DNA of 38,309 bases, from contig JAIBBQ010000038.1 in assembly GCA_019694595.1 (NCBI GenBank), forward strand, positions 1 through 38,309. Direction: 5' to 3'. The stretch comes from Myxococcaceae bacterium (GTDB taxonomy: Bacteria; Myxococcota; Myxococcia; Myxococcales; Myxococcaceae). Position numbers and translations under genes: made by a program. The notes beneath the pieces are model-generated. The model did no database searches and had not been told where the DNA came from. It was given only the letters and a program-made list of their open reading frames with translations. Shown piece after piece: positions 3,001 to 30,647 of this stretch. The stretch's first letter is position 1, and each line of letters starts with the position of its first letter.

Positions 3001-4111
3001 ACAGATCGAGGAAGCGGCGGCGCTCCCCGGCCAGCGCACCGACGTGCTCATCGCCCAGGCGCGGCTGTTCCTCATCGACCAGAAGCTGTCCGAGGCGGAC
3101 AAGGCGAGCGCCGACGCGGTGGCGCTCACCCCGCAGTCGGCCGACGCCCGCGTGGTGCGCGGCCAGGTGCTCAACGCGCTGGGCAAGAGCGCCGAAGCCG
3201 AAGCCGAGGTGCTCAAGGCGCTCGAGGTCGAGCCGGCGGCGCGGCTCGGGCAGCAGACCCTGGGCGAGGCGCTGCGCGCGCAGGGCAAGCTCGACCAGGC
3301 GACGGCGGCGCTGGAGAAGGCCCGCCAGGCCGACCCCACCAACGCACAGGCCACGCTGCTGCTCGGCGTGGTGCAGCGCGAGAAGGGCGACCTCGCGGGC
3401 GCGGCCGGCACGCTGCTGGCGGCCCAGCAGGCCGACCCCGGCAACCCCGAGTGCTGGTACCAGCTCGGCCTGGTGCGCACCGCCCGCCGCGAGTTCAACA
3501 CCGCGGTGGACACGCTGAAGAAGGCCATCGAGTACTCGCCCAAGCAGGCGAGGTTCCACCTCGCGCTCGGCGACGCGCTGCTGGGCAGCGGCAAGGTGCC
3601 CGAGGCACAGGCGTCGTGGAAGCAGGCGCTCGCGCTCGACCCCAAGCTGGCGGCGGCGCTCGAGGCGCTGGGCCGGCTGGCGCTCGACCGCAACGACTAC
3701 AAGGGCGCCTACAAGTACCTGAGCGACTCGCTCACCATCGAGGCGTCGCGCGCCGAGGTGTGGGTGGCGCTCGGCGACGCGCAGGTGGGCCAGGAGAACT
3801 TCGAAGGCGCGGTGAAGAGCTTCACCAAGGCGCTGGAACTCAAGCCCGACCTCACCACCATCTACTTCCGGCTCGGACAGGCGCACCAGGCGCAGCACCG
3901 CTACGCCGACGCCTCGAGCTGGTACCGCAAGGCGACCAAGGCCGAGCCGAACAACGCCGGCGCGTGGCTCAGCCTCGGCTGGGCGTGCAAGGAACAGAAG
4001 CAGCGCGCCGAGGCCAAGGCGGCCTTCAAGCAGTACCTGACGCTCAAGCCCGACGCCGACAACCGGAAGGAGATCGAGGACGAGATCGACTACCTCGCCT
4101 CGGACAACTAG
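2..4111 (+). CDS. PLPG-repeat / GYF-like / TPR transmembrane protein (5' end outside window)
   Basis: The frame is open from base 2, so the true start lies upstream; about 1,369 residues are visible. Residue numbers here count from the in-frame GTG at 83. The N-terminal part (to about 200) is low complexity, with at least eleven PLPG motifs, first as 14-residue tandem repeats and then scattered (IPLPGA). Around 300-345 there are three copies of an SLDDGFLP-like motif followed by a P-K/R pair. A GYF_2/DUF4339-like domain lies at about 430-485 (GKTFGPFEG, then a W near its end). One membrane helix is at 548-567, and TPR repeats fill about 600-1340. The likely topology is a cytoplasmic N-terminus and a periplasmic TPR region. 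This layout recalls the large gliding-motility proteins of Myxococcus (GltI/AgmK, GltJ/AgmX type), but orthology is inference. Its TAG stop shares a base with the serS start. Confidence 0.85.
20..229 (+). repeat. Five 42-bp in-frame tandem repeats
   Basis: Five consecutive 42-bp units at 20-61, 62-103, 104-145, 146-187 and 188-229 each encode a 14-residue unit of the type [15 protein letters not shown] partial copy precedes them at the window edge. The last three differ by only a few bases, while the first is more diverged. The near identity suggests recent expansion or homogenisation by slippage or recombination, and the copy number may vary between strains. The array is coding, and the total length cannot be known because it runs off the window. 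Confidence 0.9.
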
Positions 4112-5391
4112 TGCTCGACCAGCGTGAAGTGGCGAAGAACTTCGAAGCCGTCGTCGCCCGGCTGCAGGACCGCAAGGGAAGCCTGGACCTCACCGAGGTG
4201 AAGACGCTCTTCGCGGAGCGCAAGGTGCTCCACGTGGAGGTGGAAGGCCTGCAGGCCAAGCGCAACGCGGCCAACGAGGAGATGAAGAAGCTGGCCAAGA
4301 GCGACCCCAAGGCGCTGGAAAGCGCCCGGGGCGAGCTCAAGGCGGTGAGCAGCGGCATCAAGGAGAAGGAAGCGCGGCTCACCGAGCTGGAAGAGAAGCT
4401 CGAGAAGCTGATGCTGGTGATTCCCAACGTGCCGCACGCCTCGGTGCCCACCGGCGCCTCGGAGGCGGACAATCAGGTGGTGCGCACCTGGGGTGAGAAG
4501 CCCAACCTGCTCTTCACGCCCCGCCAGCACTTCGAGGTGGGCGAGAAGCTCGGCATGCTCGACTTCGAGCGCGCGGCGAAGGTGTCGGGCAGCCGCTTCG
4601 CGTTCCTGAAAGGGCCGCTGGCGCGGCTCGAGCGCGCGCTCGCCTCGTTCATGATCGACCAGCACGTGCAGCGCGGCTACGAGGAGCTCCTGCCGCCGTA
4701 CCTGGTGACCCGCCAGTCGATGACCGGCACCGGCCAGCTGCCCAAGTTCGAGGAAGACGCCTTCAAGACGGCGGGGGAACACGAGCTGTTCCTGATTCCC
4801 ACCGCCGAGGTGCCGGTCACCAACTTCCACCACGACGAGATTCTCGAGGGGGCCACGCTCCCGAGGAAGTACTGCGCCTTCTCGCCCTGCTTCCGCGCCG
4901 AGGCCGGCTCGGCGGGCAAGGACACCCGCGGCCTCATCCGCATGCACCAGTTCCACAAGGTCGAGCTGGTGCAGTTCGTCCGCCCCGAGGAATCGCAGGC
5001 CGCGCTGGAAGCGCTCACCGCCGACGCGGCGCGCATCCTCGAGCTGCTCGGGCTGCACCACCGGGTGACGCTGCTGTGCACCGCGGACATGGGCTTCGCG
5101 TCGACCAAGACCTACGACCTCGAGGTGTGGCTGCCGGGGCAGCAGGCGTACCGGGAAATCTCCTCGTGCAGCTCGTTCGGCGACTTCCAGGCGCGGCGGG
5201 CGAAGATCCGCTTCCGCCCCGCGCAAGGCGAGAAGCCCCAGCTGCTCCACACGCTGAACGGCTCGGGCCTCGCGGTGGGCCGCACGCTGGTGGCCATTCT
5301 CGAGAACTACCAGCGCGAAGACGGCACGGTGGCGATCCCCGAGGTGCTGCGCCCGTACCTGGGCGGCCTCGACGCGCTGCGGCCGGTCTAG
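4111..5391 (+). CDS. serS: Seryl-tRNA synthetase
   Basis: This class II aminoacyl-tRNA synthetase charges tRNA-Ser with serine. The product is 426 residues, normal for bacterial SerRS. Residues 1-110 form the charged antiparallel coiled-coil arm that grips the long variable arm of tRNA-Ser. The catalytic domain follows, with TAEVPVTN at about 231, motif 2 ([14 protein letters not shown]) at about 261-275 and motif 3 ([10 protein letters not shown]) at about 385-394. The GTG start at 4111 reuses the last base of the upstream TAG stop and places VLDQREV where the family begins, so translational coupling to the TPR gene is likely. Two of its tRNA substrates are encoded at 30.8-31.0 kb in this window. 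Confidence 0.97.
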
Positions 5392-5402
5392 AGGCCGCAG
5401 CG
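5375..5402. terminator. 10-bp perfect hairpin across the serS stop codon
   Basis: CGCTGCGGCC at 5375-5384 and GGCCGCAGCG at 5393-5402 are perfect reverse complements around the 8-base loop GGTCTAGA, which contains the serS TAG. It lies between two convergent genes and has no T-run on either side. A bidirectional terminator or RNA-stabilising stem is the likely role. Confidence 0.6.
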
Positions 5403-5421
5403 TCAGCGCGGGCCAGAAGCT

Positions 5422-6060
5422 TCAGCCGTTGGGGCAGGCCGCGAGGATTTGCTCGCTGCTGAGCCCGCTTCGCACCAGGGTCATCAGCTGCGCCGCGGTG
5501 CAGCCCTGCTTCGCCGCGAGCGGCGGCGGGCGGCTCGCAGAGACGTACGCGGGCGCCGGCGGTGGGGCCGGCGGGCCACGGCTCGGAGGGGCGGGCGCGA
5601 GTGCCACCGGCTGGTTCGGCGACGAGACCTCGGTGACCGAGCTGAAGGCGGGGCGCCGGTTCCAGCTGGGCGCGCCCTCGGGAACGAGCGTGGCCTGACA
5701 GCTCGACTCCTGGAGGTCGTTCCACGCGCCCCCGGCATCGACGAATGCCACGCAGCCCAGCGGGAAGAGGAACAGGCACATCAGCGTGTCGGCGGCGACG
5801 TAGCCGCCCGCCGGCGTCATCGCGGTCCGGCAGGTGTGGGCTTCGAAGCCGGGGCTCTTGAGCTGCACCGTGGACGACGCTTTGCGGGGCAACGTGATGG
5901 TGGCAGGCGTCCACCCGACGCTCTGGCCGTCGACCAGGATCTCGGCGCCCTGCGGGCTCGAATCGACCCGATAGGGAACCGTGGTGGAAGCGCTGACGGT
6001 CGCACAGCCGACCGACAGGGAAGACACGACCAGGAAGGGGAGCAGGCGCAGTGGGTTCAT
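5422..6060 (-). CDS. PEGA-domain lipoprotein
   Basis: A 212-residue protein. The chosen ATG at 6060 gives a classic lipoprotein signal: a short basic start (MNPLR), a hydrophobic core and the lipobox SVGC with Cys at about 19. Residues 30-73 fit a PEGA domain, a small beta-sandwich found in surface proteins (VDSSPQGAEILVDG, then GWTPATITLP). A second hydrophobic stretch with cysteines follows at about 85-110, then a Pro/Ala-rich linker at about 155-180. The C-terminus holds two more cysteines (GCTAAQL and LAACPNG). The open frame extends upstream to 6576, but that part is antisense to mgtA and lacks a signal sequence. Its function is unknown; an outer-membrane or periplasmic location is inferred. 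It converges with serS. Confidence 0.8.
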   Translation of the reverse strand: MNPLRLLPFLVVSSLSVGCATVSASTTVPYRVDSSPQGAEILVDGQSVGWTPATITLPRKASSTVQLKSPGFEAHTCRTAMTPAGGYVAADTLMCLFLFPLGCVAFVDAGGAWNDLQESSCQATLVPEGAPSWNRRPAFSSVTEVSSPNQPVALAPAPPSRGPPAPPPAPAYVSASRPPPLAAKQGCTAAQLMTLVRSGLSSEQILAACPNG

Positions 6061-6161
6061 GCCGGGCCATGGTGCACGGTGCGGGCAAGCCCAAGTGGTT
6101 GATCTCCTTGCCGGGCGGATGGTGAGCCAGTCCTCGGCGCGGGAGCCGCCGCCGTCAGGCC

Positions 6162-8657
6162 TCAGCCCGGCTGCCCGACGAGCTGACGCCGGTAGAACCA
6201 GCGCTTGGTGAGCTCGGCCATGGCCGCGTACCCCAGCGTGATGCCCACCAGCGCCGCCAGCAGCGCGGGCGGCAGCGGCTCGAAGCCCAGCGGCCCGGCG
6301 AGCGGGGTGTACGGCAGCACCAGGTCGATGGCGGCCACCACCGCGGACGAGACCCACAGCACCCGGCCCGGGCGGCTCGAGAATGCGAAGCCTCGCGTGC
6401 GCACCACGAAGAGGATGAGCAGCTCGGTGAGCAGCGACTCCACGAACCACCCGGTGCGGAAGCGCTCGGGGCCGGCCTCGAACGCGAACAGCAGCGTGCC
6501 GAAGGTGGCGAAGTCGAAGAGCGAGCTCAAGAGCCCGAACTCCACCATGAAGCGGCCGATGAAGCGCAGCTCCCACCGCCTGGGGCCGGCGATGGCCTCT
6601 TCATCTACCGCGTCCCCGGCGAGCGCCATCGCCGGCACGTCCGACAGCAGGTTGTTGAGCAGCACCTGGCTGGCGAGCAGCGGCAGGAACGGCAGCACCA
6701 GCGACGCCGCCGCCATGCTCACCATGTTGCCCAGGTTGGCGCTGGTGGTGGTGAGCACGTACTTGAGCGTGTTGGCGAAGGTGCGCCGGCCTTCGCGCAC
6801 GCCGGCCTCGAGCACCTTGAGCCCCCGCTGGAGCAGCACGAAGTCCGCCGCCTCGCGGGCCACGTCGACCGCGCCTTCCACTGAGACGCTGACGTCGGCG
6901 GCGTGCATCGACGGCGCGTCGTTGATGCCGTCGCCGAGGTAGCCCACCACGTGCCCCACCTTCCGGAAGGCGCGCACCACGCGCTCCTTCTGGTGGGGGT
7001 CGAGCTGGGCGAAGACGTCGACCGAGCGCACCCGGTGCCACAGCGCCTCGTCGCGCAGGCCGTCGAGGTCCTCGCCGGTGAGCACGTCGAGGCCTTCGAG
7101 CCCCACCGCGGCCCCGACGTGGCGGGCCACGCCCCGGGCGTCGCCGCTCACCATCACCACCCGCACGCCGAGCCGGCGCAGGTCGGCGATGGCCGCGGCG
7201 GCGTCGTCGCGCGGCGGGTCGGCGAAGAGCAGCGCCCCTTCCCAGGTGAGCGCGCGCTCGTCTTCCCGGGTGGGCGCGCGCTCGCAGTCGAGCGCCCGGC
7301 TGGCGACGCCGATGACGCGCAGGCCGTCGGCGTCGCGGGCCGAGAGGCGCTCCAGCAGCGCCCGGCGCTCGGCCGGCTCGAGCGCGCAGCAGTCGAGCAC
7401 CTGGGCGAGCGCGCCCTTCACCACCAGCACCGGGCGACCCGACACCACCGCGGCCACCGACAGCCGCTTGCGCACGAAGTCGTAGGGCACCTCGCCCAGC
7501 TTCCGGGCCTCGACCGTCGGCGCGGCGCGGGCGATGACCTCGTCGAGCGAGGAACTCATGCCGCCCTGGAGCCGCGCGTTGACGCCGGCGAGCTCGAGCG
7601 CGCGCGGAGTGGTGGCCTCGCACAGCGCGGGCGTGCCCACGGTGAGCGTGCCCGTCTTGTCGGTGCACAGCACGTCCATGCTGCCCAGGTTCTCCACCGC
7701 GTCGAGGCGGCGCACGAGCACGCCACGCTCGGCCATCACCCGGGTGGCGTGGGTCAGGTTGATGGACAGGATTGCGGGCAACAGCTCGGGCGTGAGCCCC
7801 ACCGCGAGCGCGAGCGAGAAGAGCAGCGCTTCCGCCGGAGGCCGGTGGAGCAGCACGTTGACCGCGAAGACCACCACCACGATGGACAGCATGGCGACGG
7901 TGAGCAGGAGCCCGAAGCGCCTCAGCCCGCGCTCGAACTCGGTCTCGCCGCGCGGCGAGGCGAGCCGGTGGGCGATGCCGCCGAAGGCGGTGCGTGGCCC
8001 GGTGTGCACCACCAGCGCGCGCGCAGTGCCGCTGCGCACGTGGGTGCCCAGCCAGACGCACCCGGTGCGCTTCGCGAGCGGTGTCCCCGGCGCGCAGGGC
8101 CCGACGCGCTTCTCGACCGGGAAGCCTTCGCCGGTGAGCGCGGCCTCCGACACGAAGAGGTCGTTGGTGGCGAGCAGCACCGCGTCGGCCGGCACCAGGC
8201 TGCCCGCGCGCAGCTCCACCACGTCGCCCGGCACCACCTCGGGCACCGGCACCGGCACGCTCACGCCGTCGCGCAGCACCTGGGCCTTGAGCACCAGCTG
8301 GCGCTCGAGCTTCTCGAGCACGTCGCGCGCGCCGCGCTCCCGCCGGTAGCCGATGGTGACCGACGCGCCGACGATGATGGCCACCACCAGCGCCTCGGTG
8401 ACGCCGCCCGCCCACAGCGAGACGCCCATGGCGAAGACGAGCAAGAGCACCATGGGCGAGCGCACCTGCCGCCACAGCAGGTCGAGGTCGCGCAGCCGCC
8501 GCGCGCGCTCGAGGCTGTTGGGGCCGACCTGCCGCAGCCGGGCCGCGGCCTCCGGCGCGCTGAGCCCGCGGGCCGAGCTGGCGACCGACGCGCAGAGGTC
8601 CTCCGGGGTCAGGCTCCACGGCGGCGGCGAGGTCGCTGCGGGTGGGGCCAAGGGCAC
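6162..8657 (-). CDS. mgtA: Mg2+-importing P-type ATPase (MgtA/MgtB family)
   Basis: An inner-membrane P-type ATPase of class IIIB, 831 residues. The phosphorylation motif DKTGT has Asp at 333, the M4 motif is TPELLP at about 287-292, and the hinge GDGIND is near 575. The C-terminal block (NTLKYVLTTTSANLGNMVSM, later FRTGWFVES) is characteristic of MgtA rather than of Ca2+ or Na+/K+ pumps. The frame stays open to 8939, but I place the start at GTG 8657 because AAAGGAG sits four bases upstream and the preceding 94 residues are low-complexity and Arg-rich. It is transcribed divergently from the kinase at 9131. In other bacteria mgtA responds to low Mg2+; no recognisable Mg2+ riboswitch was seen here. 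Confidence 0.93.
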   Translation of the reverse strand: MPLAPPAATSPPPWSLTPEDLCASVASSARGLSAPEAAARLRQVGPNSLERARRLRDLDLLWRQVRSPMVLLLVFAMGVSLWAGGVTEALVVAIIVGASVTIGYRRERGARDVLEKLERQLVLKAQVLRDGVSVPVPVPEVVPGDVVELRAGSLVPADAVLLATNDLFVSEAALTGEGFPVEKRVGPCAPGTPLAKRTGCVWLGTHVRSGTARALVVHTGPRTAFGGIAHRLASPRGETEFERGLRRFGLLLTVAMLSIVVVVFAVNVLLHRPPAEALLFSLALAVGLTPELLPAILSINLTHATRVMAERGVLVRRLDAVENLGSMDVLCTDKTGTLTVGTPALCEATTPRALELAGVNARLQGGMSSSLDEVIARAAPTVEARKLGEVPYDFVRKRLSVAAVVSGRPVLVVKGALAQVLDCCALEPAERRALLERLSARDADGLRVIGVASRALDCERAPTREDERALTWEGALLFADPPRDDAAAAIADLRRLGVRVVMVSGDARGVARHVGAAVGLEGLDVLTGEDLDGLRDEALWHRVRSVDVFAQLDPHQKERVVRAFRKVGHVVGYLGDGINDAPSMHAADVSVSVEGAVDVAREAADFVLLQRGLKVLEAGVREGRRTFANTLKYVLTTTSANLGNMVSMAAASLVLPFLPLLASQVLLNNLLSDVPAMALAGDAVDEEAIAGPRRWELRFIGRFMVEFGLLSSLFDFATFGTLLFAFEAGPERFRTGWFVESLLTELLILFVVRTRGFAFSSRPGRVLWVSSAVVAAIDLVLPYTPLAGPLGFEPLPPALLAALVGITLGYAAMAELTKRWFYRRQLVGQPG

Positions 8658-18298: not shown

Positions 18299-21142
18299 AT
18301 GGACCTCCAGCACACGTTGCTCCGCTGCGCCCTGGCCGTCGCCGTCGCCACCAGCTGGCTGGGCTGCGGTGGCCCGGTGGACGACGGCGGGCTCGGGTCG
18401 GGCACCCAGGAGCTCGCGCCCACCTGCGAGGCGCCGCAGCGGTGCGCCGACGGCCACTGCGACGACTTCACGCCGACGGACGAGATCGTCGCCGCGCGAG
18501 GCCTGCAGCCGCTCGACGCCCCGGCGGTGCCGATGCCGCCGCCGCCGCTCGGCCACCGCTCGGTGCGCCTGGGCAGCGACGTGAAGGGCCAGTACCTGCG
18601 GCCGGTCATTCCCGCCTTCCGCACCTCGCCCGACGGGCGGGTGGCCCTGCTGTCGGCGGAGATCGCGAGCCACAAGCTCGAGGTGCTGCGCGCGGCGCCG
18701 GTGGTGCAGCACCACAAGGACCTCGCGGCGCGCCTCATCGGCACCAGCCGGGTGAACCTGCACGCGCGCTTCGAGAGCCGGATGCCCGCGGGCACCACCG
18801 CGAGCGGCGCCGAGTTCCTCTGTCAGCCCGAAGCGAAGATGCCCTTCGCCTGCGGCACGTCGGACCGCGACGACTGCTACCGGCTGGTGCTGATTCACGA
18901 GCGGGAGCGCAGCGACACCTCGCTGCAGCTGTTCTCGATTCCCATCTTCGTCCGGGTGCAGAACCCGAAGACGGTGAAGGCGGAGATCGCGGAAGTCCGG
19001 GTGGACCTGGACCGCATCGAGGCCTCCGACCCGCTCCCGTTCGGGCTGATGGCCGAGCTGGTGTCCACCGCCGACGGGCGGATGATCGCGGGGCGCATCC
19101 TCGCCGGCCCGGGCGACGGCTTCGGGGCCACCCTCACCTACCGGCTCGCCGGGGGTCGCGAGGCGACCAACCAGTTCAGTCTCTTCTACGCGTACAGCGA
19201 CACGCCGTGCGACGTGCGCACCTGGTTCGGGCGCGAGGCGGGCGTGTTCACCTCGCTGCGCCCCATTCCGGCGGCGGCCTTCGACCCGCGGCTCACGCCC
19301 CGCTACGGCCTGGCGGCCCGCCCGCTGCGCGACACGCTCGGCCGGGAGCTCGGCGAGACCGACGTGCTCGCGGGCTCGTACCCGTGGCTCGACCGCGAAG
19401 GGAACAACCTCTTCTTCTCCAGCACCAACCCCATGCCCTTCAGCCAGGACGCGACCCAGGGCCGCTGGCCGGCCAAGCGCGAAGGGAAGCCGCTGCAGTT
19501 CGTGGGCACGGCGCCCCGGGGCTTCTCGGTGGTGGGCTCGTGGACCCAGGGCAAGGTGGTGCTGCTCGACGGCCTCATCAACAACGACGACTCCGGCTTC
19601 GGCCCGGAAGACACCCACCAGCTGGGGCTCTACCGCTCGACGACCGAGCGGCTCGCGGTGCGGGTGAACGGCGGCGGCAAGGACGGCACGAGCGAGCTGC
19701 AGCTGCCCGACGCCAAGGGCAACAACCACCACATCGAGTCGCTGGAGAACCGCCTCGGCATGCACACCGGCAGCCTGCCGGTCACCCCGCGCGACGTGGT
19801 CTGGCAGGTCACCCGCGGGCTGATGACCGACGAGATCGCCTTCGACGACTACATGGACCCGCACGTGGTGCTCTTCGCGGAGATGAACGCCGCGGTCCGC
19901 GTGCAGCCCGACGACGCGCGCAACGGCTCGTACCTCGACGGCTTCGGCAAGAGGGACGGGGCCTTCGTGCACGACCCCCAGGACATCGTGCTCCAGAACG
20001 CGGCCACCTCGCGGGTGTACGCGGCGCTGGGCAACGGCCGCCTCGACGGCCCGGGGCGCATCGAGCCGGTGGCGCTGGGCGGCGTCCGCGGCCGGGGGCT
20101 CTTCCTCGACGCGCAGACCCAGCTGCGCTTCGACGTTCCCGCGGCGCTCGAGCCTCAGGTCGCCGGCAAGGCGTACCTGGTGAGCGCCTTCGTCGACGCG
20201 CGCGACGCGCTCGCAGGGGCGCGCCACGTCCTCACGCTCGACGATGCGGTGGCGCCGCTGGTGGTGACGCTGCGCGACGGCCAGGTGCTGTCGTTGACCC
20301 AGGGCGCCGAGGCCCCGGTGCGTGTCGACCTCGGCTGCGCGGTGGGCAGCTGGGTCGGCCGCTGGCATCACCTGGGGCTGCTGGTGGAGCCGTCGGGGGC
20401 GGTGACGGTGCTGGTCGACGGCAACCCGGTGGAGCGGCGCCGGCTCGCCACGCCGCACCCGCTGCGCGCGGGCACGCTGCGCTTCGGCCGGGGCAGCGAC
20501 GGCACCGCCGGGGTGCGCGGCTGGTACGACGAGGCGCGGGTGGTGGTCGACGGCAAGGCCCAGCTCACCGCGAGCGGGTCGATCGAGCTGCTGTGCAACT
20601 ACGCGCGCGGGCTCAGCCTGGGCGTGCACGCCGACTCCACGCTGCGCGCGCGGGCCGAGCGGGTGCCGTTCGCCCGCACCCGGGCGGCCGAGCTGGGGTA
20701 CCGCGCCTCGCAGGGGCTCCTGTGGTGTGCCACCGACTTCGACCGGCCGTTCGGCGTCGGCCGCCAGGCGGTGCCCGACGCGGCGCACGTCACGGTGCTG
20801 CGCGACGAGATCCTCCTCGAAGGCACGCAGCCGCTGCGCTTCGACCGCGCCCGGCCCGACAGCCGCGGTCGCTCGTTCTGCGCGAGCTGCCACCTCACCC
20901 GCGCCGAGGACCCGGGCCGCACCGACGGGCTCGCGGTGCAGGCGCTGACGCCCGGCATGGTGAACGTGGCCGACGACCCCCGCACCCAGCCGATGCAGCC
21001 GCCGTCGCCGGGCAACGACGGGGCACAGGCGCTGGGCGTCATTCCCGCGCAGTGGGTGCTGGGGTCCGATGGCGCGCGCTACCCGGAGCAGCCCCAGCGC
21101 GGGCCGGTGCAGGTGCTGCGCTTCCTCTTCCGTCCGAAGTGA
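18299..21142 (+). CDS. Large lipoprotein with LamG-like region and one C-terminal CxxCH haem motif
   Basis: 947 residues. The N-terminus is a lipoprotein signal with lipobox SWLGC (Cys about 23), so the protein is exported and lipid-anchored. A Cys-rich stretch follows (PTCEAPQRCADGHCDD). The middle holds many beta-rich segments. At about 640-760, ARHVLTLDDAVAPLVVTL, WVGRWHHLGLLVE and RGWYDEARVVVDG resemble a LamG/concanavalin-like module. One haem c-binding motif, CASCH, sits at about 861-865 and is followed by a short tail. A single haem site at the very end of a large surface lipoprotein is unusual; a degraded cytochrome-type oxidase or dehydrogenase domain is one reading. Function unknown. 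Confidence 0.8.
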   Translation: MDLQHTLLRCALAVAVATSWLGCGGPVDDGGLGSGTQELAPTCEAPQRCADGHCDDFTPTDEIVAARGLQPLDAPAVPMPPPPLGHRSVRLGSDVKGQYLRPVIPAFRTSPDGRVALLSAEIASHKLEVLRAAPVVQHHKDLAARLIGTSRVNLHARFESRMPAGTTASGAEFLCQPEAKMPFACGTSDRDDCYRLVLIHERERSDTSLQLFSIPIFVRVQNPKTVKAEIAEVRVDLDRIEASDPLPFGLMAELVSTADGRMIAGRILAGPGDGFGATLTYRLAGGREATNQFSLFYAYSDTPCDVRTWFGREAGVFTSLRPIPAAAFDPRLTPRYGLAARPLRDTLGRELGETDVLAGSYPWLDREGNNLFFSSTNPMPFSQDATQGRWPAKREGKPLQFVGTAPRGFSVVGSWTQGKVVLLDGLINNDDSGFGPEDTHQLGLYRSTTERLAVRVNGGGKDGTSELQLPDAKGNNHHIESLENRLGMHTGSLPVTPRDVVWQVTRGLMTDEIAFDDYMDPHVVLFAEMNAAVRVQPDDARNGSYLDGFGKRDGAFVHDPQDIVLQNAATSRVYAALGNGRLDGPGRIEPVALGGVRGRGLFLDAQTQLRFDVPAALEPQVAGKAYLVSAFVDARDALAGARHVLTLDDAVAPLVVTLRDGQVLSLTQGAEAPVRVDLGCAVGSWVGRWHHLGLLVEPSGAVTVLVDGNPVERRRLATPHPLRAGTLRFGRGSDGTAGVRGWYDEARVVVDGKAQLTASGSIELLCNYARGLSLGVHADSTLRARAERVPFARTRAAELGYRASQGLLWCATDFDRPFGVGRQAVPDAAHVTVLRDEILLEGTQPLRFDRARPDSRGRSFCASCHLTRAEDPGRTDGLAVQALTPGMVNVADDPRTQPMQPPSPGNDGAQALGVIPAQWVLGSDGARYPEQPQRGPVQVLRFLFRPK

Positions 21143-23667: not shown

Positions 23668-24363
23668 ATGATCGTCGCCGTCACCGGAAGCCGCCGGGGG
23701 CTCGGCCGGTCCCTCGCCGAGCACTTCCTCGCGGCGGGGGCGTGGGTGTACGGCTGCAGCCGCGAGCCGTCGGACCTCACCCACGCGCGCTACGTCCACA
23801 CGGACATGGACGTGACCGACGAGCGGGCGGTGAAGGAGTTCTTCCGCGCGATTCGCAAGGACCACGACCGGCTCGACGTGCTGGTGAACAACGCCGGCAC
23901 CGCGGTGATGAACCACGTGCTGCTCACGCCCCGCGAGACGCTGTCCAGGCTGGTCGAGGTGAACCTGGTGGGCACGTTCCTCTGCTCGCGCGAGGCGGTG
24001 AAGCTGCTGAAGAAGAGCGACCACGGGCGAATCGTGACCCTCTCGTCCATCGTGGTGCCGCTGAGGCTTCCGGGGGCGGCGGCCTACGCCGCGAGCAAGT
24101 CCGCGGTCGAGAGCCTGATGCAGACGATGAGCAAGGAGCTCGCGCCGCTCGGCATCACGGTGAACACCGTCGGGCCGACGCCGGTGCCCACCGCGCTGGC
24201 GCGCACGGTGCCCAAGGAAGCGCTCGACCAGGTCGTCGCGCAGCAGGCGATCAAGCGACTGGGGACCGCGGAGGACGTCATCAACGTGGTGGACTTCTTC
24301 GTGCGACCCGAGAGCGACTTCGTGACCGGGCAGACCATCTACCTGGGTGGAGTCTGCGCGTGA
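23668..24363 (+). CDS. Short-chain dehydrogenase/reductase (FabG-like), first gene of the halogenase operon
   Basis: A 231-residue classical SDR, an NAD(P)H-dependent ketone/alcohol oxidoreductase. The nucleotide-binding motif TGSRRGLGR is at 6-14; Arg in this loop suggests NADPH preference. NNAG follows near 75, then the catalytic Ser in TLSS and Tyr140-xxx-Lys144 in YAASK. The length and order match FabG-type 3-oxoacyl-ACP reductases, and a carrier protein encoded in the same operon makes a beta-keto reduction on an acyl-ACP plausible. The ATG 23668 lacks a strong ribosome binding site. The 185 bases upstream should hold the operon promoter, but no element was identified. The stop overlaps the next start by four bases. 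Confidence 0.92.
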   Translation: MIVAVTGSRRGLGRSLAEHFLAAGAWVYGCSREPSDLTHARYVHTDMDVTDERAVKEFFRAIRKDHDRLDVLVNNAGTAVMNHVLLTPRETLSRLVEVNLVGTFLCSREAVKLLKKSDHGRIVTLSSIVVPLRLPGAAAYAASKSAVESLMQTMSKELAPLGITVNTVGPTPVPTALARTVPKEALDQVVAQQAIKRLGTAEDVINVVDFFVRPESDFVTGQTIYLGGVCA

Positions 24364-25724
24364 GGGTGAAGCCGTTCATCGAGCGACTCGCCTCGTTCGC
24401 CGACGCGCCGGCGCTCCACACCGCGGAGCGAACCCACACCTACGGCGAGCTGCACCGCGCGGTGCTCGACCGGGCGGCCTGGCTCGAGGCGCACGGGGTG
24501 TCGCGCCCCCACTCCATCGTGCTGCTCGAGGCGGACTACTCGCTCGACGGCATCGCGCTGCTGCTCGCGCTGTTCAACCAGGATCAGATCGTCGGGCTGA
24601 GTTCCGGAGGACCGGACGCCGAGGCCCGCCTCGCCGCGCTCGACCCGCACCACGTCATCGACGCCCGCGCGCTGACCGTCGCGCACCGCGAGGCGAGCCA
24701 CGCGCACCCGCTCACCGAGCGCCTCCCGGGTGGCCGCGCGGGCCTCGTGCTCTTCAGCAGCGGCACCACCGGCCGGCCGAAGGCGATGCTCCACGACCTC
24801 GACACCATCGTGGACGCGTTCCTGGGGCGCAGGCCCCGCAGGCTGAACGTGCTCCTGCTGTTGATGTTCGACCACATCGGTGGGCTGAACTCGCTGCTCA
24901 GCACGCTGGCGATGGGCGGGGCCGCGGCGCTGCCGCGCGAGCGCTCGCCCGACGCGGTGTGCGGCATGGTGGCCAGGCACGGCGTGGTGGTGCTGCCCGC
25001 CTCGCCCACCTTCCTCAACCTGATGCTGCTCAGCGGCGCCTGCGAGCGGCACGACCTGAGCTCGCTGCGCCTCATCACCTACGGCACCGAGCCGATGCCC
25101 GAGAGCCTGCTGACGCGGCTCAAGGCCCGGTTTCCAAAGGTGAAACTGCTGCAGACCTTCGGAACCAGTGAGACAGGCATCGCTTCCACCGTGTCTCTGT
25201 CCTCGGGAAGCCTGTTCATGAAGATCGACGACCCCTCGATGGAGCACAAGATCGTCGACGGCGAGCTCTGGCTGCGCAGCCAGCGGCAGATCCTCGGGTA
25301 CCTCAACGAGGAATCGACCCGCTTCACGGCCGACGGCTGGTTCCGCACGGGCGACATGGTGGAGACCACGGGCGACGGCTTCTTCCGCATCCGCGGCCGG
25401 CAGACCGACATCATCAACGTGGGCGGCGAGAAGGTCTTCCCCGGCGAGGTCGAGTCCTGCGTGGGAGAGCTGCCCTTCGTGGCCGACTGCCGGGCCTACG
25501 GCCAGGCGAACGCGCTGACGGGGCAGGCGGTCTGGGTGGACGTGGTGCTCAAGCCGGGCAGCGAGCCGGCCGGGGCAGACGCCAAGGCGCGGGTGAAGGA
25601 GATCCGCGCGTTCACCCGCGAGCGGCTCGACGCCTTCAAGGTGCCGGTGCGCATCAACGTGGTGGACGCCATCGCCTATTCGGCCCGCTTCAAGAAACTC
25701 CCACACCAGGAGCAGCGCCCGTGA
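24360..25724 (+). CDS. AMP-forming acyl/aryl ligase (ANL superfamily)
   Basis: 454 residues. It activates a carboxylic acid as acyl-AMP and transfers it to a thiol, probably the phosphopantetheine of the carrier protein encoded downstream. Seen motifs: P-loop FSSGTTGRPKAM near 132-143, ITYGTEPMPES, QTFGTSETG (the adenine-pocket loop), GDMVE, and the hinge region FRIRGRQTDIINVGGEKVFP. The end, YSARFKKLP, places a candidate catalytic Lys in RFKK. At 454 residues it is shorter than typical acyl-CoA synthetases and nearer to DltA-like ligases found in small pathways. GTG 24360 overlaps the SDR stop (GTGA). Substrate unknown. Confidence 0.92.
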   Translation: MRVKPFIERLASFADAPALHTAERTHTYGELHRAVLDRAAWLEAHGVSRPHSIVLLEADYSLDGIALLLALFNQDQIVGLSSGGPDAEARLAALDPHHVIDARALTVAHREASHAHPLTERLPGGRAGLVLFSSGTTGRPKAMLHDLDTIVDAFLGRRPRRLNVLLLLMFDHIGGLNSLLSTLAMGGAAALPRERSPDAVCGMVARHGVVVLPASPTFLNLMLLSGACERHDLSSLRLITYGTEPMPESLLTRLKARFPKVKLLQTFGTSETGIASTVSLSSGSLFMKIDDPSMEHKIVDGELWLRSQRQILGYLNEESTRFTADGWFRTGDMVETTGDGFFRIRGRQTDIINVGGEKVFPGEVESCVGELPFVADCRAYGQANALTGQAVWVDVVLKPGSEPAGADAKARVKEIRAFTRERLDAFKVPVRINVVDAIAYSARFKKLPHQEQRP

Positions 25725-26383
25725 ACGTCGTGTTGCTGGGGTCGGGCGGGTTCGCGCGCGAGGTGCAGGAGTACCTGCTGGCGGCGGGCGCGACCGCCCC
25801 GCTGAAGCTCAAGGGCTACCTCGACGTGCCGGGCCACCAGTCGCTGCTCGGCGACGCCGCGCACCTGGGCGAGGAAGGCAGCTACCGCCCCGGCGCCGAC
25901 GAATGCTTCCTGCTGGGCATGGCCGACGGCGCGAAGCGGGCGGAGGTGCTCGCGCGCTGCTCGGGCGCCGGCTGGAAGAGCCTCAACCTGATTCACCCCA
26001 CCGCGGTGGTGTCGCCGCGCGCCTCGCTGGGCACGGGCAACGTCATCGGCCCGTTCGTCTACGTGGGGGCGAACGCGGTCCTCGGCGACCACAACGTCTT
26101 CAACTGCGGCTGCTCGGTGGGGCACGACTCCACCATCGGGTCGAACAACGTCTTCGCGTCGAACGTGCAGCTCGCCGGCTACGTGCGCATCGGCGACGCG
26201 AACTTCTTCGGCATCAGCGCGTCGGTGATTCCGCGCCTGACGATCGGCAACGGCAGCAAGGTGGCTGCGGGGACGGTGGTGACCGCGAACGTCCCCGACG
26301 CCTGCCTCTACTTCCACCGAGACACCAACAAGGTCGCCTTCATCTACCCCCAGGCGGCCCAGGCGCAGCCCACCCCGGAGTGA
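25721..26383 (+). CDS. NeuD/PglD-type acyltransferase (left-handed beta-helix)
   Basis: 220 residues. The N-terminal Rossmann-like domain begins VVLLGSGGFAREVQEYL, diagnostic of the sialic-acid O-acetyltransferase NeuD / PglD group. Hexapeptide repeats follow from about 85 to 190 (HPTAVVSPRASLGTGNVIG, GANAVLGDHNVFN, VGHDSTIGSNNVF), ending with IGNGSKVAAGTVV. His in GHDSTIG is the expected catalytic base. Family members N- or O-acylate sugars or sugar nucleotides using acyl-CoA; in polysaccharide clusters related enzymes occur with dedicated ligases and carrier proteins. The GTG start overlaps the ligase stop by four bases. This gene is the best hint that the acyl group ends on a sugar or amine acceptor. 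Confidence 0.9.
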   Translation: MNVVLLGSGGFAREVQEYLLAAGATAPLKLKGYLDVPGHQSLLGDAAHLGEEGSYRPGADECFLLGMADGAKRAEVLARCSGAGWKSLNLIHPTAVVSPRASLGTGNVIGPFVYVGANAVLGDHNVFNCGCSVGHDSTIGSNNVFASNVQLAGYVRIGDANFFGISASVIPRLTIGNGSKVAAGTVVTANVPDACLYFHRDTNKVAFIYPQAAQAQPTPE

Positions 26384-26403: not shown

Positions 26404-28122
26404 ATGAACCCGGTACTGATCGTCGGCGCAGGGCCCGCGGGGTGCGTCTCCGCGCTCACCCTGCGCAAGCTCGGCCACGAGGTCGTCCTCTTCGAGCGGG
26501 CGGGGGCCCCCGAGTACAAGATCGGCGAGTCGCTGCTCCCAGGCACGCTCTCGATTCTCCACCGCCTGGGGCTCAAGGACCGGCTCGACGCCGCGAAGTT
26601 CGTCAAGAAGCCGTCGGCCACGTTCATCTGGGGCGCCGACGAGGAGCCGTGGACCTTCTCCTTCGCCACCGCGCGCCCGGAGCCGTGGATCTACGACCAC
26701 GCGATCCAGGTGCTGCGCAGCGAGTTCGACGGCATCCTCCTCGACGCGGTCAAGGAAGCGGGGGTCGAGGTCCGCGCGGGCCATTCCGTCTCGGGCATCG
26801 AGAGCTCGCGCCCCGACGACGTCGAGGTGCAGTGGACTGCCAACGGCCAGAGCGGCACCCAGCGGGGCAGCTACGTCATCGACTGCACCGGGCAGGCCGG
26901 GCTCATCGCCAAGAAGCACGAGCTGCGGCGCTACGACGCCTTCTACCGGAGCCTCGCCGTCTGGAATTACTTCCCCGCGACGCGCGCGTTCTCGGGCGAC
27001 CTCAACGGCACCACCTTCTCCATCACCTTCCGCGACGGGTGGATCTGGATGATCCCCCTGAAGGACGGCACGTACTCGGTGGGCGCGGTGGTGGACACCG
27101 AGGCGAGCCGCGAGATCCAGGCGCTGGGGGCGAGCGCGTTCCTCGACCGGTGCCTGCGCTCGGCGCCCGAGGTGCACACCATCGTCGACCTCTCGCAGCC
27201 CCGCAGCGAGACCCGCATCATCCGCGAGTGGTCGTACGACGCCACGCGTTTCTCGTTCGGCCGGGTCTTCATGTGCGGCGACGCGGCGTGCTTCACCGAC
27301 CCGCTCTTCTCGCAGGGAGTGCACCTGGCGACGCAGTCGGCGGTGTGCGCCGCCGGGGCCATCGACGCGCTCGCGAAGAACCCCGCCCACGCGGACGCCG
27401 TGCACCAGTGGTTCGACACCAGCTACCGGGAGTCGTACTCGCAGTACCACGAGTTCCTGGCGTCGTTTTACAGCCACGCCTCGCGGCTGATGCCGAGCTC
27501 GGCCTTCTGGAGCAAGCGTCGGGTCCAGGACTTCGCCGACAAGCGCTTCGCGAACACGCTGTGGATGAAGTCGCTCACCGGCCAGGCGGAGCCCGAGGCG
27601 GGCGGCGAGGGCGCGGTCATCGACCAGTTCGTGGGCCGCTCGGGCACGATGATCGGCATCGGCCAGCACCTCCGCAAGGAGCTGCACGCGGACTTCAGCG
27701 AGGCGGAGCTCAGCCAGAAGCGGCTGATGTGGGTCGCGAACCTGACCAAGTCGCTCAACCGGATCCAGAAGTTCAGCTGGGTCGGCGACGAGGCGCGCCT
27801 GGTGCCCACCTTCAAGGTGGACCCGCTGTCGTTCCGTCTCCGCGAGGAAGCCATCGTGGCCAACGAGCGCGGGGTCACCATGTCCAAGTACCCGCTGAAC
27901 GAGAAGTACCTCGCGGTGCTGCAGGCGCTGAAGCACGAGGAGGTCGGGTACAAGGAACTGATGCGGCGCTTCCAGGCGCTCGACCAGCCCGAGGTCGCGA
28001 GCCAGATCATCATCCGGCTGCTCGAGGCGGGGCTCCTGCGCGGGTACGACAAGAAGGGCGAGCGGGTGGCGATCCAGAAGCGGCTGCGGTTCGACGGCGT
28101 CGGCGCCGAGTACGAGGTCTGA
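26404..28122 (+). CDS. Flavin-dependent halogenase-like FAD enzyme
   Basis: 572 residues. The FAD-binding GAGPAG is at 8-13, and KIGESLLPG near 40 is typical of halogenases and relatives. Both motifs used to define flavin-dependent halogenases are present: GWIWMIP (GWxWxIP) at 212-218, and FTDPLFSQG (FxxPxxSxG) at 297-305 just after GDAAC. The second motif is associated with true halogenation activity, so chlorination or bromination is predicted. The family includes enzymes acting on carrier-bound substrates such as PltA, and an ACP gene follows after one base. Residues about 490-550 look like an added winged-helix-type domain (YPLNEKYLAVLQAL, LLEAGLLRGY), making it longer than typical members. 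An oxygenase role is the main alternative. ATG 26404 follows a GAGAGA-rich leader. Confidence 0.88.
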   Translation: MNPVLIVGAGPAGCVSALTLRKLGHEVVLFERAGAPEYKIGESLLPGTLSILHRLGLKDRLDAAKFVKKPSATFIWGADEEPWTFSFATARPEPWIYDHAIQVLRSEFDGILLDAVKEAGVEVRAGHSVSGIESSRPDDVEVQWTANGQSGTQRGSYVIDCTGQAGLIAKKHELRRYDAFYRSLAVWNYFPATRAFSGDLNGTTFSITFRDGWIWMIPLKDGTYSVGAVVDTEASREIQALGASAFLDRCLRSAPEVHTIVDLSQPRSETRIIREWSYDATRFSFGRVFMCGDAACFTDPLFSQGVHLATQSAVCAAGAIDALAKNPAHADAVHQWFDTSYRESYSQYHEFLASFYSHASRLMPSSAFWSKRRVQDFADKRFANTLWMKSLTGQAEPEAGGEGAVIDQFVGRSGTMIGIGQHLRKELHADFSEAELSQKRLMWVANLTKSLNRIQKFSWVGDEARLVPTFKVDPLSFRLREEAIVANERGVTMSKYPLNEKYLAVLQALKHEEVGYKELMRRFQALDQPEVASQIIIRLLEAGLLRGYDKKGERVAIQKRLRFDGVGAEYEV

Positions 28123-28123
28123 G

Positions 28124-28465
28124 GTGGCGAGCCAGGCAACGACGGCGGCGACGGGCGCGGAGGACGAGGTCCTCTACGGGATGATCATGGGCGTCCTGGG
28201 TGAGCTCAACCAGGGCCGGGAGAACCCCATCGAGCTCGGCCTCGGCAAGGGGCTCGTGCTCTTCGGGCGCGGAGCGGTGTTCGATTCCATGGGGCTGGTG
28301 AGCTTCCTGTCCCGGGTCGAAGAGGAGCTCGAGGACCAGCTCGACCAGGTCATCTCGCTCACCTCGGAGAAGGCGGTGTCGCGCCGGCAGAGCCCCTTCG
28401 CCAGCGTGCAGGCGCTCATCGACTTCATCCGCGAGGAGCTGGCCGAGCAGGGCGCGGCGACGTGA
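28124..28465 (+). CDS. Acyl carrier protein-like
   Basis: 113 residues, acidic and helical. GAVFDSMGLVSFLSRVEEEL matches the carrier-protein signature, with candidate phosphopantetheine Ser55 in DSMGLV. It is longer than the usual 80 residues because of about 20 extra N-terminal residues and a longer loop before the serine. The third and fourth helices (LTSEKAVSRR, VQALIDFIREELAEQ) are recognisable. GTG 28124 lies one base after the halogenase stop, and the gene overlaps the next by four bases. It is the likely tether for the acid activated by the ligase at 24360 and a possible substrate platform for the halogenase. A phosphopantetheinyl transferase is not encoded in the window. Confidence 0.85.
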   Translation: MASQATTAATGAEDEVLYGMIMGVLGELNQGRENPIELGLGKGLVLFGRGAVFDSMGLVSFLSRVEEELEDQLDQVISLTSEKAVSRRQSPFASVQALIDFIREELAEQGAAT

Positions 28466-29346
28466 GCGGTCCCGCGGAGGCTCCGTCGACCATCGTCCGC
28501 AAGGCGGTGCCGGGAGATCTCGACCAGATCTTCACGCTGCTGGCCGGCTCGGAGCTGTCGCGGGAAGCGCGCGCGCGCATGTTCGAGAAGCGCTGGGGCG
28601 CCGACGAGGACTACTTCGGGTACGTGCTCGAGCTGAACCACACCATCGTGGGGATGCTGGGGCTGATGTTCAGCCGCCGGGAGCTGAACGGGGTCACCCA
28701 CAAGTTCTGCGAGCTGCACACCTGGTACGTCGACGACGCCCACCGCGACGAGAGCCTCAAGCTGTTCCTGCCGGTGATGGGGCTCAAGGGGTACGACTTC
28801 ATCAACGTCGCCCCGTCCGACGTGGTGCTCGCCATCTCCAAGAAGTTCGGGTTCCAGGAGCTGGAGACGCACCTGCGGCTGGTCTTCCCGGTGCCCACGC
28901 CGCGGACCTTCGTGGGTGGCACCGAGCTCGTCTTCGACCACCAGGTCATCGAGCGCTCGCTGTCGGGCAGAGACCTGCGGATCTTCCAGGACCACCGCGA
29001 CCTGCCGCTCACCCACGTGCTGGCGCGCGATGGCTCGGGCCACCACTGCTACGTCATCGCCAAGGCCTGCTCGCGGGAACGCTGGGAGCGCTACGGCCGC
29101 ATCTTCCACTTCAGCAGCGCGGAGGCGTTCGTGCGGCACCTGCCTGCGCTGCGCGTCAGGCTCTGCCTCGAGCTCGGAGTGCTCTTCCTGGTGACGAACG
29201 ACGCGAAGCTCGAGGGCGCCCAGGTGCCGTTCTCGAAGGTGATTCCGCGCGAGGTCCCCTCGCTCTTCAAATCGAAGACGCTGCGGAGAGAAGACCTCGA
29301 CCACCTGTACACCGAGCCGTTGGTCCTCGGGTACCGGTTCCAGTAG
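28462..29346 (+). CDS. GNAT-like acyltransferase
   Basis: 294 residues. The first 165 fit a GNAT fold: IVRKAVPGDLDQIFTLL start, YFGYVLELNHTIVGMLGLMF core strands, and ISKKFGFQELE, the 'GF' near the end of the domain common in this family. The acyl-CoA pyrophosphate loop is not obvious. The second half (165-294) is an additional domain, beta-alpha in character (HHCYVIAKACSRERW, VRLCLELGVLFLVTND), perhaps a second degenerate GNAT-like unit. GTG 28462 overlaps the ACP stop, so stoichiometric production with the ACP is likely. An acyl-ACP dependent N-acyltransferase role is inferred from context, not shown. Confidence 0.75.
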   Translation: MSGPAEAPSTIVRKAVPGDLDQIFTLLAGSELSREARARMFEKRWGADEDYFGYVLELNHTIVGMLGLMFSRRELNGVTHKFCELHTWYVDDAHRDESLKLFLPVMGLKGYDFINVAPSDVVLAISKKFGFQELETHLRLVFPVPTPRTFVGGTELVFDHQVIERSLSGRDLRIFQDHRDLPLTHVLARDGSGHHCYVIAKACSRERWERYGRIFHFSSAEAFVRHLPALRVRLCLELGVLFLVTNDAKLEGAQVPFSKVIPREVPSLFKSKTLRREDLDHLYTEPLVLGYRFQ

Positions 29347-29357
29347 GGACGCGCGCG

Positions 29358-30647
29358 ATGCCCGCCGCTCGTCGCACGTACCTCTTCTACCGCGACGTGG
29401 ACTTCGTCCCGTACCTGGTCTCGCTGGCAGCCGTGGGGGGCCTGACCTGGGCCGCGCTCCCCTACGCGTGGGTCCGCGGCAGCGTGGCGGTGGCGCTCGC
29501 GTTCCTGGCGGCGCTCTTCTGGCGCAAGCACGGTGCGCGGCTCGAGCCCCGAAGCGTGGGCCTGCTGCTGCGCGGCCTCGGGCGCTACCCCTGGTCGCTC
29601 GCGCTGCGGCTCCTCGACGGCTGGGCCATCTCCGCGCAGCTGGCGCTCGGGTTCGCGGTGGCGCTCGGTGTCGAAGCCGGCGTGCGCCACGTCGCGGGGC
29701 CGGACTCGCTCTGGCTCACGCCCTTCCCGGCTCTCTGGTGCTTCGCCGTCGTCTTCGGCGCCCTGACCGCGTACCGGACCGTCGTGCTGCTGGCCCACCT
29801 GCGGAAGGCGCGCCACGTGCGCCAGGTGCTCGAAGGGTCGAGCTGGGCGCGGGAGCTCAAGGGGCTCTCGACCTGGGCGCACCTGGTGCACGCCTGGGTG
29901 ACGGGCGAGCTGGCGACGCTCGCGTTCTTCCTGCCGTCGCTCCTGTTCTGGCAGCTGACGGAGCCGACCTGCGTGCGCGAGCTGGTGCTCCTGGCGCTCG
30001 GTGCGGGCGCGATCCTCGCGAGTGCGCGCGGCCTCGACACCCGGGCCGAGGTGCCCGCGTCCAGGTCGCTGCGGGTGGCGGTGGCGCTGGTGGTGCCGTC
30101 GGGGAAAGCGGCGGAGCGCGAAGGCGGCCTCACCCACGGGGCCGACCACGCCTCGCGCTTCGGCTTCACGCTCTTCCACGGCCACCACCACGACGCGGTG
30201 CCGTGTGCGCTGGTCGGCGGACCGGGCGTGGGACTGCTGGAGGCGTTCGACAACGGCTTGCTCTACCTGCCGTATCTCGGCAGCGCGACGGTCTCGCTGC
30301 TGGCCTTCGGCGCGTACGCGGTCATCGACATGCTCTTCCACCAGTACGTGCCCGGCGTCTTCCCGTACACGCGCGCGGTGCTGTCGTTCCAGGTGCACCA
30401 CGTCGCGCACCACTTCTTCTCGCTGCGGCCGGTGAGCGTGAACGCGCGGTACGGCTTCGACGTGGGCGCGGGGTACCGGCCGGACAACGCGGTGACCCGC
30501 TGGTTCCTCGAGACGGCGAAGGCGCACGAGCCGGTGCCGGTCGACGTGTCGGACCGCTTCCTGCGCCTGACGCTCGCCGAGCCGATGGTGGTGACCCCGG
30601 AGGAAGTCGCCCGCATCGACGCGCACGCGCGCGGCGCGGTGGCCTGA
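29358..30647 (+). CDS. Membrane di-iron protein of the fatty-acid hydroxylase/desaturase type
   Basis: 429 residues with about six to eight membrane helices in the first 330. Three histidine clusters match the HX3H, HX2HH, HX2HH pattern of the fatty-acid hydroxylase / sterol desaturase superfamily: HGADH at 260-264, HGHHH at 274-278 and HHVAHH at 347-352, with another His in FHQYVPG. These residues would bind two irons for O2-dependent hydroxylation or desaturation of a lipid-like substrate at the inner membrane. The N-terminal 200 residues are longer than in the simplest members. It is the last gene of the operon, 11 bases after the GNAT-like gene, so the final product or an acyl precursor is probably lipophilic. 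Confidence 0.82.
   Translation: MPAARRTYLFYRDVDFVPYLVSLAAVGGLTWAALPYAWVRGSVAVALAFLAALFWRKHGARLEPRSVGLLLRGLGRYPWSLALRLLDGWAISAQLALGFAVALGVEAGVRHVAGPDSLWLTPFPALWCFAVVFGALTAYRTVVLLAHLRKARHVRQVLEGSSWARELKGLSTWAHLVHAWVTGELATLAFFLPSLLFWQLTEPTCVRELVLLALGAGAILASARGLDTRAEVPASRSLRVAVALVVPSGKAAEREGGLTHGADHASRFGFTLFHGHHHDAVPCALVGGPGVGLLEAFDNGLLYLPYLGSATVSLLAFGAYAVIDMLFHQYVPGVFPYTRAVLSFQVHHVAHHFFSLRPVSVNARYGFDVGAGYRPDNAVTRWFLETAKAHEPVPVDVSDRFLRLTLAEPMVVTPEEVARIDAHARGAVA

Follow-up and report, generated by a model that had tools for sequence, protein, structure and literature searches.

A CmlS-type flavin-dependent halogenase in a predicted seven-gene operon of a Myxococcaceae bacterium

A predicted halogenase gene in a row of closely spaced genes

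The window, that is, the whole stretch of 38,309 bases analysed here, comes from a Myxococcaceae bacterium and carries a row of seven closely spaced genes in the order SDR, AMP-ligase, NeuD-like, halogenase, ACP, GNAT-like and His-rich membrane protein:

23668..24363, + strand: SDR-family reductase/dehydrogenase, CmlJ-like, first gene of the predicted operon (Pfam adh_short_C2, E=3.4e-49)
24360..25724, + strand: AMP-ligase, CmlK-like (Pfam AMP-binding, E=1.6e-34)
25721..26383, + strand: NeuD/PglD-like hexapeptide acyltransferase (NCBIfam NeuD_NnaD, 146 bits, just under the cut-off of 160.8)
26404..28122, + strand: CmlS-type flavin-dependent halogenase, 572 aa (open reading frame; NF033113, 3i3l and Pfam matches)
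28124..28465, + strand: small carrier-protein-like protein, CmlM-like, with a DSxxLV serine (alignment A4; identity to CmlM homologue)
28462..29346, + strand: GNAT-like acyltransferase (Pfam Acetyltransf_1, E=0.0013, below the gathering cut-off)
29358..30647, + strand: orphan membrane protein with His clusters (six hydrophobic segments; 11 bp after the GNAT-like gene)

The gaps between these genes are, in order, -4, -4, 20, 1, -4 and 11 bp; a lipase gene lies upstream at a distance of 185 bp from the SDR gene, and tRNA genes follow the last gene. Such spacing suggests that the seven genes form one transcript. A search for promoter-like sites at the operon returned none, and terminator-like sites did not exceed their frequency in shuffled sequences.

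The SDR, the AMP-ligase and the ACP are respectively 47%, 48% and 52% identical to their counterparts in a chloramphenicol-type locus of Streptomyces omiyaensis (L023), so that the window holds a CmlJKMS-type set of SDR, AMP-ligase, ACP and halogenase. Homologues of CmlA, CmlI and CmlP gave no tblastn hit at 1e-10 anywhere in the 38,309 bases. The initial annotation had placed a carrier-protein gene beside the halogenase, and the CmlM homologue found there (52% identity) agrees with this. The product of 28124..28465 is a putative ACP by virtue of its homology to CmlM: it has no PP-binding hit in Pfam, and the serine of its DSxxLV motif is invariant in the ten carrier proteins of alignment A4. 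CmlM itself, according to a passage of PMC4249514, was assigned from a Phyre2 prediction and a conserved serine.

The membrane protein displays the histidine clusters HGADH, HGHHH and HHVAHH. Its one Pfam match is FA_hydroxylase at E=5, and no homologue was found in the loci of 31 relatives (see below) or in 194 other genomes of the phylum; a role as di-iron or membrane oxygenase is a guess. Upstream of the operon, positions 18299-21142 hold a 947-aa open reading frame whose product starts like a lipoprotein and matches neither Pfam nor NCBIfam models.

Identity of the halogenase

The features that we consider within the halogenase gene are the following:

26608..26610, + strand: codon of Lys69, aligned with CmlS Lys71 (Lys in 32/32 aligned sequences)
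27037..27057, + strand: GWIWMIP (WxWxIP motif), residues 212-218 (pattern in 32/32 aligned sequences)
27226..27228, + strand: codon of Glu275, aligned with CmlS Asp277 (Asp in 29/32 aligned sequences)
27292..27318, + strand: FTDPLFSQG (FxxPxxSxG tunnel motif), residues 297-305 (pattern in 32/32 aligned sequences)
27730..28083, + strand: CmlS_C domain, residues 443-560 (PF22045, E=1.5e-45)
27769..28047, + strand: predicted RRE-like winged helix, three strands then three helices, residues 456-548 (AlphaFold2 model of residues 431-572)

The reading frame is uninterrupted from ATG to stop. An alternative in-frame ATG lies upstream at 25903; 26404 is the likelier start because aligned relatives begin near residues 1-4. 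GWIWMIP and FTDPLFSQG, both named in the initial annotation, are borne out by the translation and by the alignment, and a GxGxxG motif is also present. Across all six reading frames of the window, translated to 76,614 residues, the pattern W.W.IP has one match and F..P..S.G has two, the additional one being a stray match at another place in the same frame; by themselves, these motifs are thus modest evidence.

What decides in favour of a predicted halogenase is homology to CmlS beyond the motifs. The NCBIfam CmlS model NF033113 matches residues 4-572 (E=1.9e-236, 786 bits), the solved CmlS structure 3i3l matches residues 3-572 (E=1.5e-194, 651 bits), and the protein is 50% identical, end to end, to the chloramphenicol halogenase CmlS of Streptomyces venezuelae. 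It consists of an FAD/halogenase core (PF04820, E=9.2e-37) followed by CmlS_C, the domain that defines the PF22045 group. An AlphaFold2 model built from 32 sequences (mean pLDDT 82.7, pTM 0.87) superposes on 3i3l over 566 columns in Foldseek, with TM scores of 0.89/0.92. The earlier proposal of a halogenase-type flavoenzyme is therefore supported by motifs and by homology alike.

Residues E42, K69 and Y348 are invariant in all 32 aligned sequences and align with CmlS E44, K71 and Y350 (CmlS numbered from MTRSK), which we take, for both roles and numbers, to be the catalytic Glu, Lys and Tyr. The position of CmlS Asp277, presumably the flavin-attachment residue under that numbering, is occupied by Asp in 29 of the 32 sequences and by Glu in the window, L003 and L024. 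Passages of PMC12052999 and PMC6864650 describe the FAD of CmlS as bonded to an aspartate. Since CndH, FasV, RadH and Mpy16 also have Asp at the position aligned with Glu275, as aligned here, Asp at this position does not mark covalent FAD exclusively. Glu275 would be a naturally occurring substitution of Glu for Asp at the site of an unusual bond between flavin and protein.

Is the enzyme simply CmlS in another organism? The two systems share full-length similarity, motifs, the Lys/Glu/Tyr residues, CmlS_C and the SDR, AMP-ligase and ACP partners. However, the score of 786 bits lies below the NF033113 equivalog cut-off of 900 bits, the flavin-bonded Asp is replaced by Glu, and the neighbours differ, the window being devoid of chloramphenicol backbone genes. 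These differences rule out a simple CmlS equivalog.

The C-terminal domain

An extra winged-helix-like part of about 60 residues had been noted at the C terminus and called not typical. A winged helix is indeed predicted, within a larger domain of about 118 residues whose three-helix part amounts to about 60. In the full-length model, helices span residues 500-508, 516-524 and 529-542, and strands lie within 456-487 and at 545-548. Modelled alone (residues 431-572, 28 sequences, mean pLDDT 88), the domain begins with a helix, continues with three strands and another three helices, and ends in a strand. The description as not typical does not hold, since the region is Pfam CmlS_C, which is matched by all 28 C-terminal segments of the group scanned with Pfam and is also found in the solved CmlS structure; an atypical, unprecedented domain is thus ruled out. 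As judged from the alignments, CmlS_C is extra only relative to halogenases outside the CmlS group: CndH, FasV, RadH and Mpy16 align to residue 397 of the protein or less, leaving the CmlS_C region outside the alignment. CndH (3e1t) and FasV (8zop) share the halogenase core and the motif regions with the window protein, but at about 30% identity and with no CmlS_C domain aligned.

Using the C-terminal model as a query, Foldseek returned 3i3l as the sole match at E < 0.001. With VIA-align, 3i3l scored Z 16.7 and the next matches were the carbamoyltransferases GdmN and NovN (4.8-5.6). Further Z scores, all in the range under 8 that may reflect merely a common arrangement, were 4.8 for ThcOx, 4.8 for the PbtF RRE (83 residues, 3.4 A), 4.7 for MadB, 4.6 for TigE, 3.8 for LynD, 3.2 for QhpG and 2.8 for PqqD; the assignment of RREs to these entries is in part our assumption. 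A passage of PMC12710340 defines RREs strictly by the strand-helix order bbb-aaa, and the CmlS_C model has this order, preceded by an extra N-terminal helix.

CmlS_C therefore resembles RREs (PbtF 8t19, LynD 4v1t, TigE 8vpo, PqqD 5sxy) in the order of three strands and three helices and in weak fold matches (Z 2.8-4.8), but similarity to PqqD in sequence was not detected and no precursor peptide is known for the window. The C-terminal alignment A3 (28 of the 32 sequences, with L015, L017, L020 and L029 left out) had no similarity to nine PqqD sequences in hhalign (probability 0.6%), and a control comparison of A3 with the ACP alignment gave no match either (0.1%). A Pfam scan of the 28 C-terminal members found no PqqD match. 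In a profile search of the PDB, A3 retrieved 3i3l and then 12 PPR/alpha-solenoid chains, which we read as spurious helix-repeat hits.

Does CmlS_C bind the carrier protein? QhpG (7ctq), a peptidyl-Trp flavin monooxygenase, is a structural relative of CmlS that likewise ends in a winged helix; in the part of PMC7876137 that concerns us, its protein substrate is docked by model into a pocket between the two domains. QhpG, however, modifies a protein residue, and its domain match is just Z 3.2. BmdC oxidises a carrier-bound intermediate, and a passage of PMC8795117 has its authors judging its RRE-like domain a likely relic. A possible binding of the carrier by CmlS_C is thus favoured by the QhpG precedent and by a CmlM-type ACP near all 31 relatives, and disfavoured by the case of BmdC.

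Relatives and their gene neighbourhoods

A scan of genome contigs with the window halogenase and CmlS yielded 32 loci, 31 of them full length or nearly so. The 31-locus counts below leave out L034 (27% identity, residues 157-459 only) and the two loci of the window's own genome (L001 and L002). They rest on tblastn, because the gene caller missed genes (ACPs, for instance, were clustered in 28/32 loci), and neighbour functions were taken from selected representative ORFs in sets of ten, seven and ten. The closest relative is that of Andreprevotia chitinilytica (L003, 66% identity), the others standing at about 48-53%.

Homologues of the SDR, the AMP-ligase and the ACP (CmlJ, CmlK and CmlM) flank the halogenase in 31 of the 31 relatives. 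As SDRs and AMP-ligases are common families, this co-occurrence alone is weaker evidence than identity combined with close spacing; the SDR homologues are about 42% or more identical over nearly their full length, in closely spaced genes. Homologues of CmlA and CmlI (AurF) accompany this set in seven loci (L014, L017, L020, L022, L023, L025 and L031), among which that of S. omiyaensis encodes CmlA_N, AurF, an adenylation-carrier-reductase protein and an aldo-keto reductase. A NeuD-like acyltransferase is present in 17/31, with no overlap with these seven, and the window, with NeuD and no CmlA or CmlI, is of the NeuD type. Less widespread are a Na/H antiporter (13/31), a serine hydrolase (11/31), a GNAT homologue and a CmlT-type aldo-keto reductase (10/31 each), a FeeM-like N-acyltransferase (8/31) and a penicillin amidase (4/31); relatives also carry PPTases.

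NeuD-type loci of Andreprevotia, Streptomyces and Pseudomonas resemble the window in their SDR, AMP-ligase, NeuD, halogenase, ACP and, often, GNAT genes, whereas some have a serine hydrolase, a FeeM-like enzyme or a penicillin amidase, which the window lacks, and none has the window's membrane protein. For the SDR, ligase, NeuD, halogenase, ACP and GNAT of the window alike, the homologue of highest identity is that of the Andreprevotia locus.

Several loci show additional arrangements. A penicillin-amidase-type protein lies beside the cassette in L003, L019, L028 and L029; in L019 and L029 it adjoins the Na/H antiporter, perhaps for maturation and self-protection. In an acidobacterial MAG (L024, positions 1498-7370), a minimal ligase-halogenase-ACP-SDR set is directly followed by a SulP-type anion permease, which might supply halide. 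Streptomyces achromogenes and Streptomyces sp. WELS2 each have two different NeuD-type CmlS loci (L006 and L018; L012 and L015).

We scanned six of the 31 relatives with NF033113, one that has the chloramphenicol pair and five that lack it. L009 (1078 bits; on a 15.7-kb contig, its neighbourhood incompletely seen), L019 (1013 bits) and L033 (1032 bits) pass the cut-off, all without CmlA or CmlI in their flanks, so the model's name 'chloramphenicol-biosynthetic' over-reaches and automatic CmlS names derived from it may mislead. L003 (804 bits) and L024 (737 bits) miss the cut-off.

Distribution and origin

At E 1e-100, the halogenase was found in one of 96 genomes of the family and one of 195 of the phylum, in both cases the window's own; the membrane protein, at 1e-15, is likewise confined to its own genome among the 195. 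This distribution fits horizontal gain. The GC content of the cassette (0.699) is close to that of its flanks (0.725). A search with upstream-flank DNA in 21 genomes, the window's own included, gave only short scattered matches elsewhere, and no empty insertion site was found.

In a tree of the halogenases, the window pairs with Andreprevotia with a support of 100/100. Rooted with the outgroup, the acidobacterial L024 splits first, followed by the window pair, and chloramphenicol-type loci are nested among NeuD-type ones. The outgroup is the genome's second halogenase, on a very long branch, which makes the rooting unsure. The presence of NeuD requires three changes on this tree, which may correspond to one gain and two losses. 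With the rooting unsure, we read the chloramphenicol module as probably derived from a NeuD-bearing one.

Proposed function and alternatives

We propose that a CmlS-type FAD halogenase is the core of the seven-gene operon and alpha-chlorinates a short ACP-bound acyl group, which an acyltransferase then transfers; we give this reading a probability of about 0.6. It builds on what was observed here, namely homology, motifs, a predicted fold, gene spacing and a recurring four-gene set; the nature of the substrate and of the acceptor, how many chlorines are added and in which order the steps run are inferred. The AMP-ligase would load a short aliphatic acid onto the ACP, and the SDR would bring the beta-carbon to the oxidation state that allows an enolate to form at the alpha-carbon. 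Using FADH2, O2 and chloride, the halogenase would generate HOCl near the conserved Lys69. Chlorination of the alpha-carbon, probably in two rounds, would yield a thioester of the dichloroacetyl or alpha-chloroacyl type. The chloroacyl group would then be passed by the NeuD-like or the GNAT-like enzyme to an acceptor with an amine or alcohol function, a step that would stand in for the chloramphenicol backbone genes. Favouring this proposal are the full-length CmlS match, the invariant E42, K69 and Y348 together with the motifs, the partner set in 31/31 relatives and the tight gene gaps; the missed NF033113 cut-off, Glu275 and the ACP's missing Pfam hit speak against it. A search of the window's own genome for a FeeM-like homologue found none, a result that shows little as the search had no positive control. 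To our knowledge, no product has been described for any NeuD-type locus. Literature passages on CmlS propose that it acts through a substrate enolate, and those examined report no demonstrated in vitro substrate.

The acyl group could be of another kind. An aromatic or heteroaromatic acid on the ACP, as for PltA or CndH, would be in line with the presence of CndH, FasV and Mpy16 among the next PDB relatives and with the aromatic acid that Piraee and colleagues suggested for CmlK (as cited in a passage of PMC4249514); yet the CmlS match is far closer (651 bits versus 221 for CndH) and the whole CmlJKM set accompanies the halogenase, which makes an aromatic substrate unlikely. It is also quite unlikely that the halogenase acts on a free small molecule or a CoA ester, with the ACP serving another step. 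One review, in the portion available, tabulates CmlS as variant A (free substrate) and mentions malonyl-CoA, but a CmlM-type ACP is found near 31/31 relatives, and in the window the ACP gene starts a single base after the stop codon of the halogenase gene.

Two further alternatives are weaker. The operon might provide dichloroacetyl for the product of an NRPS encoded in another part of the genome, for example by the cluster on contig C131, which combines NRPS-like regions with two matches to CmlA_N and with another halogenase that resembles CndH. This is very improbable given that C131 is a different contig whose cluster has its own halogenase, and that the 30 kb of C131 examined contain no AurF/CmlI hit. 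Finally, models of QhpG, LodB and GoxB also match the protein, and the C-terminal winged helix of QhpG could likewise hint at a monooxygenase or a protein-modifying flavoenzyme. Those matches reach 186 bits or less, however, against 786 for the CmlS model, and all 32 aligned sequences retain the two halogenase motifs and the aligned Lys, so an enzyme other than a halogenase seems very improbable.

Within the proposed ACP-bound chlorination, a wider scenario can be sketched, which we consider doubtful as a whole: an RRE-type CmlS_C would have been reused as an ACP dock, with CmlJ/K/M/S as an ancient, portable haloacyl-ACP module; chloramphenicol clusters would have borrowed CmlJKMS and lost NeuD, while the deep lineage of the window would keep the acyltransferase and hold its flavin through Glu or non-covalently.

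Implications for dichloroacetylation

Passages of PMC4249514 describe the origin of the dichloroacetyl group of chloramphenicol as obscure and, arguing in part by elimination, regard cmlM, J, K, T and S as probably responsible for dichloroacetylation. Our comparison narrows these candidates: J, K, M and S occur side by side in 31/31 loci, against 10/31 for CmlT and 7/31 for CmlA/CmlI. At the level of gene content, this co-occurrence supports a role of J, K, M and S in dichloroacetylation and makes the four-protein set the one to reconstitute, while a general need for CmlT is not supported, as it occurs in 10 loci only. The loci of the window, Andreprevotia and the acidobacterial MAG provide deep, divergent versions of the set, and NeuD-type loci point to unexplored producers of chlorinated acyl compounds. 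The recurring partner genes, in a bacterium that has no other part of the chloramphenicol pathway beside them, suggest that the chlorinating machinery is a portable module serving the synthesis of other molecules. As the CmlS_C domain was already known, what is new is the genomic setting of the halogenase; in the literature searched (titles and beginnings of abstracts, with most subscription journals outside), we found no description of NeuD-type loci and no link between CmlS_C and RREs.

The same genome holds a separate NRPS-like region on contig C131 (L048 and L049, about 24.7-37.8 kb). Its two CmlA-type hydroxylase matches are 40.7% and 32.1% identical to CmlA of S. omiyaensis, and CmlA_N occurs in this genome on C131 only. 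The CndH-like halogenase of this region is the second halogenase of the genome.
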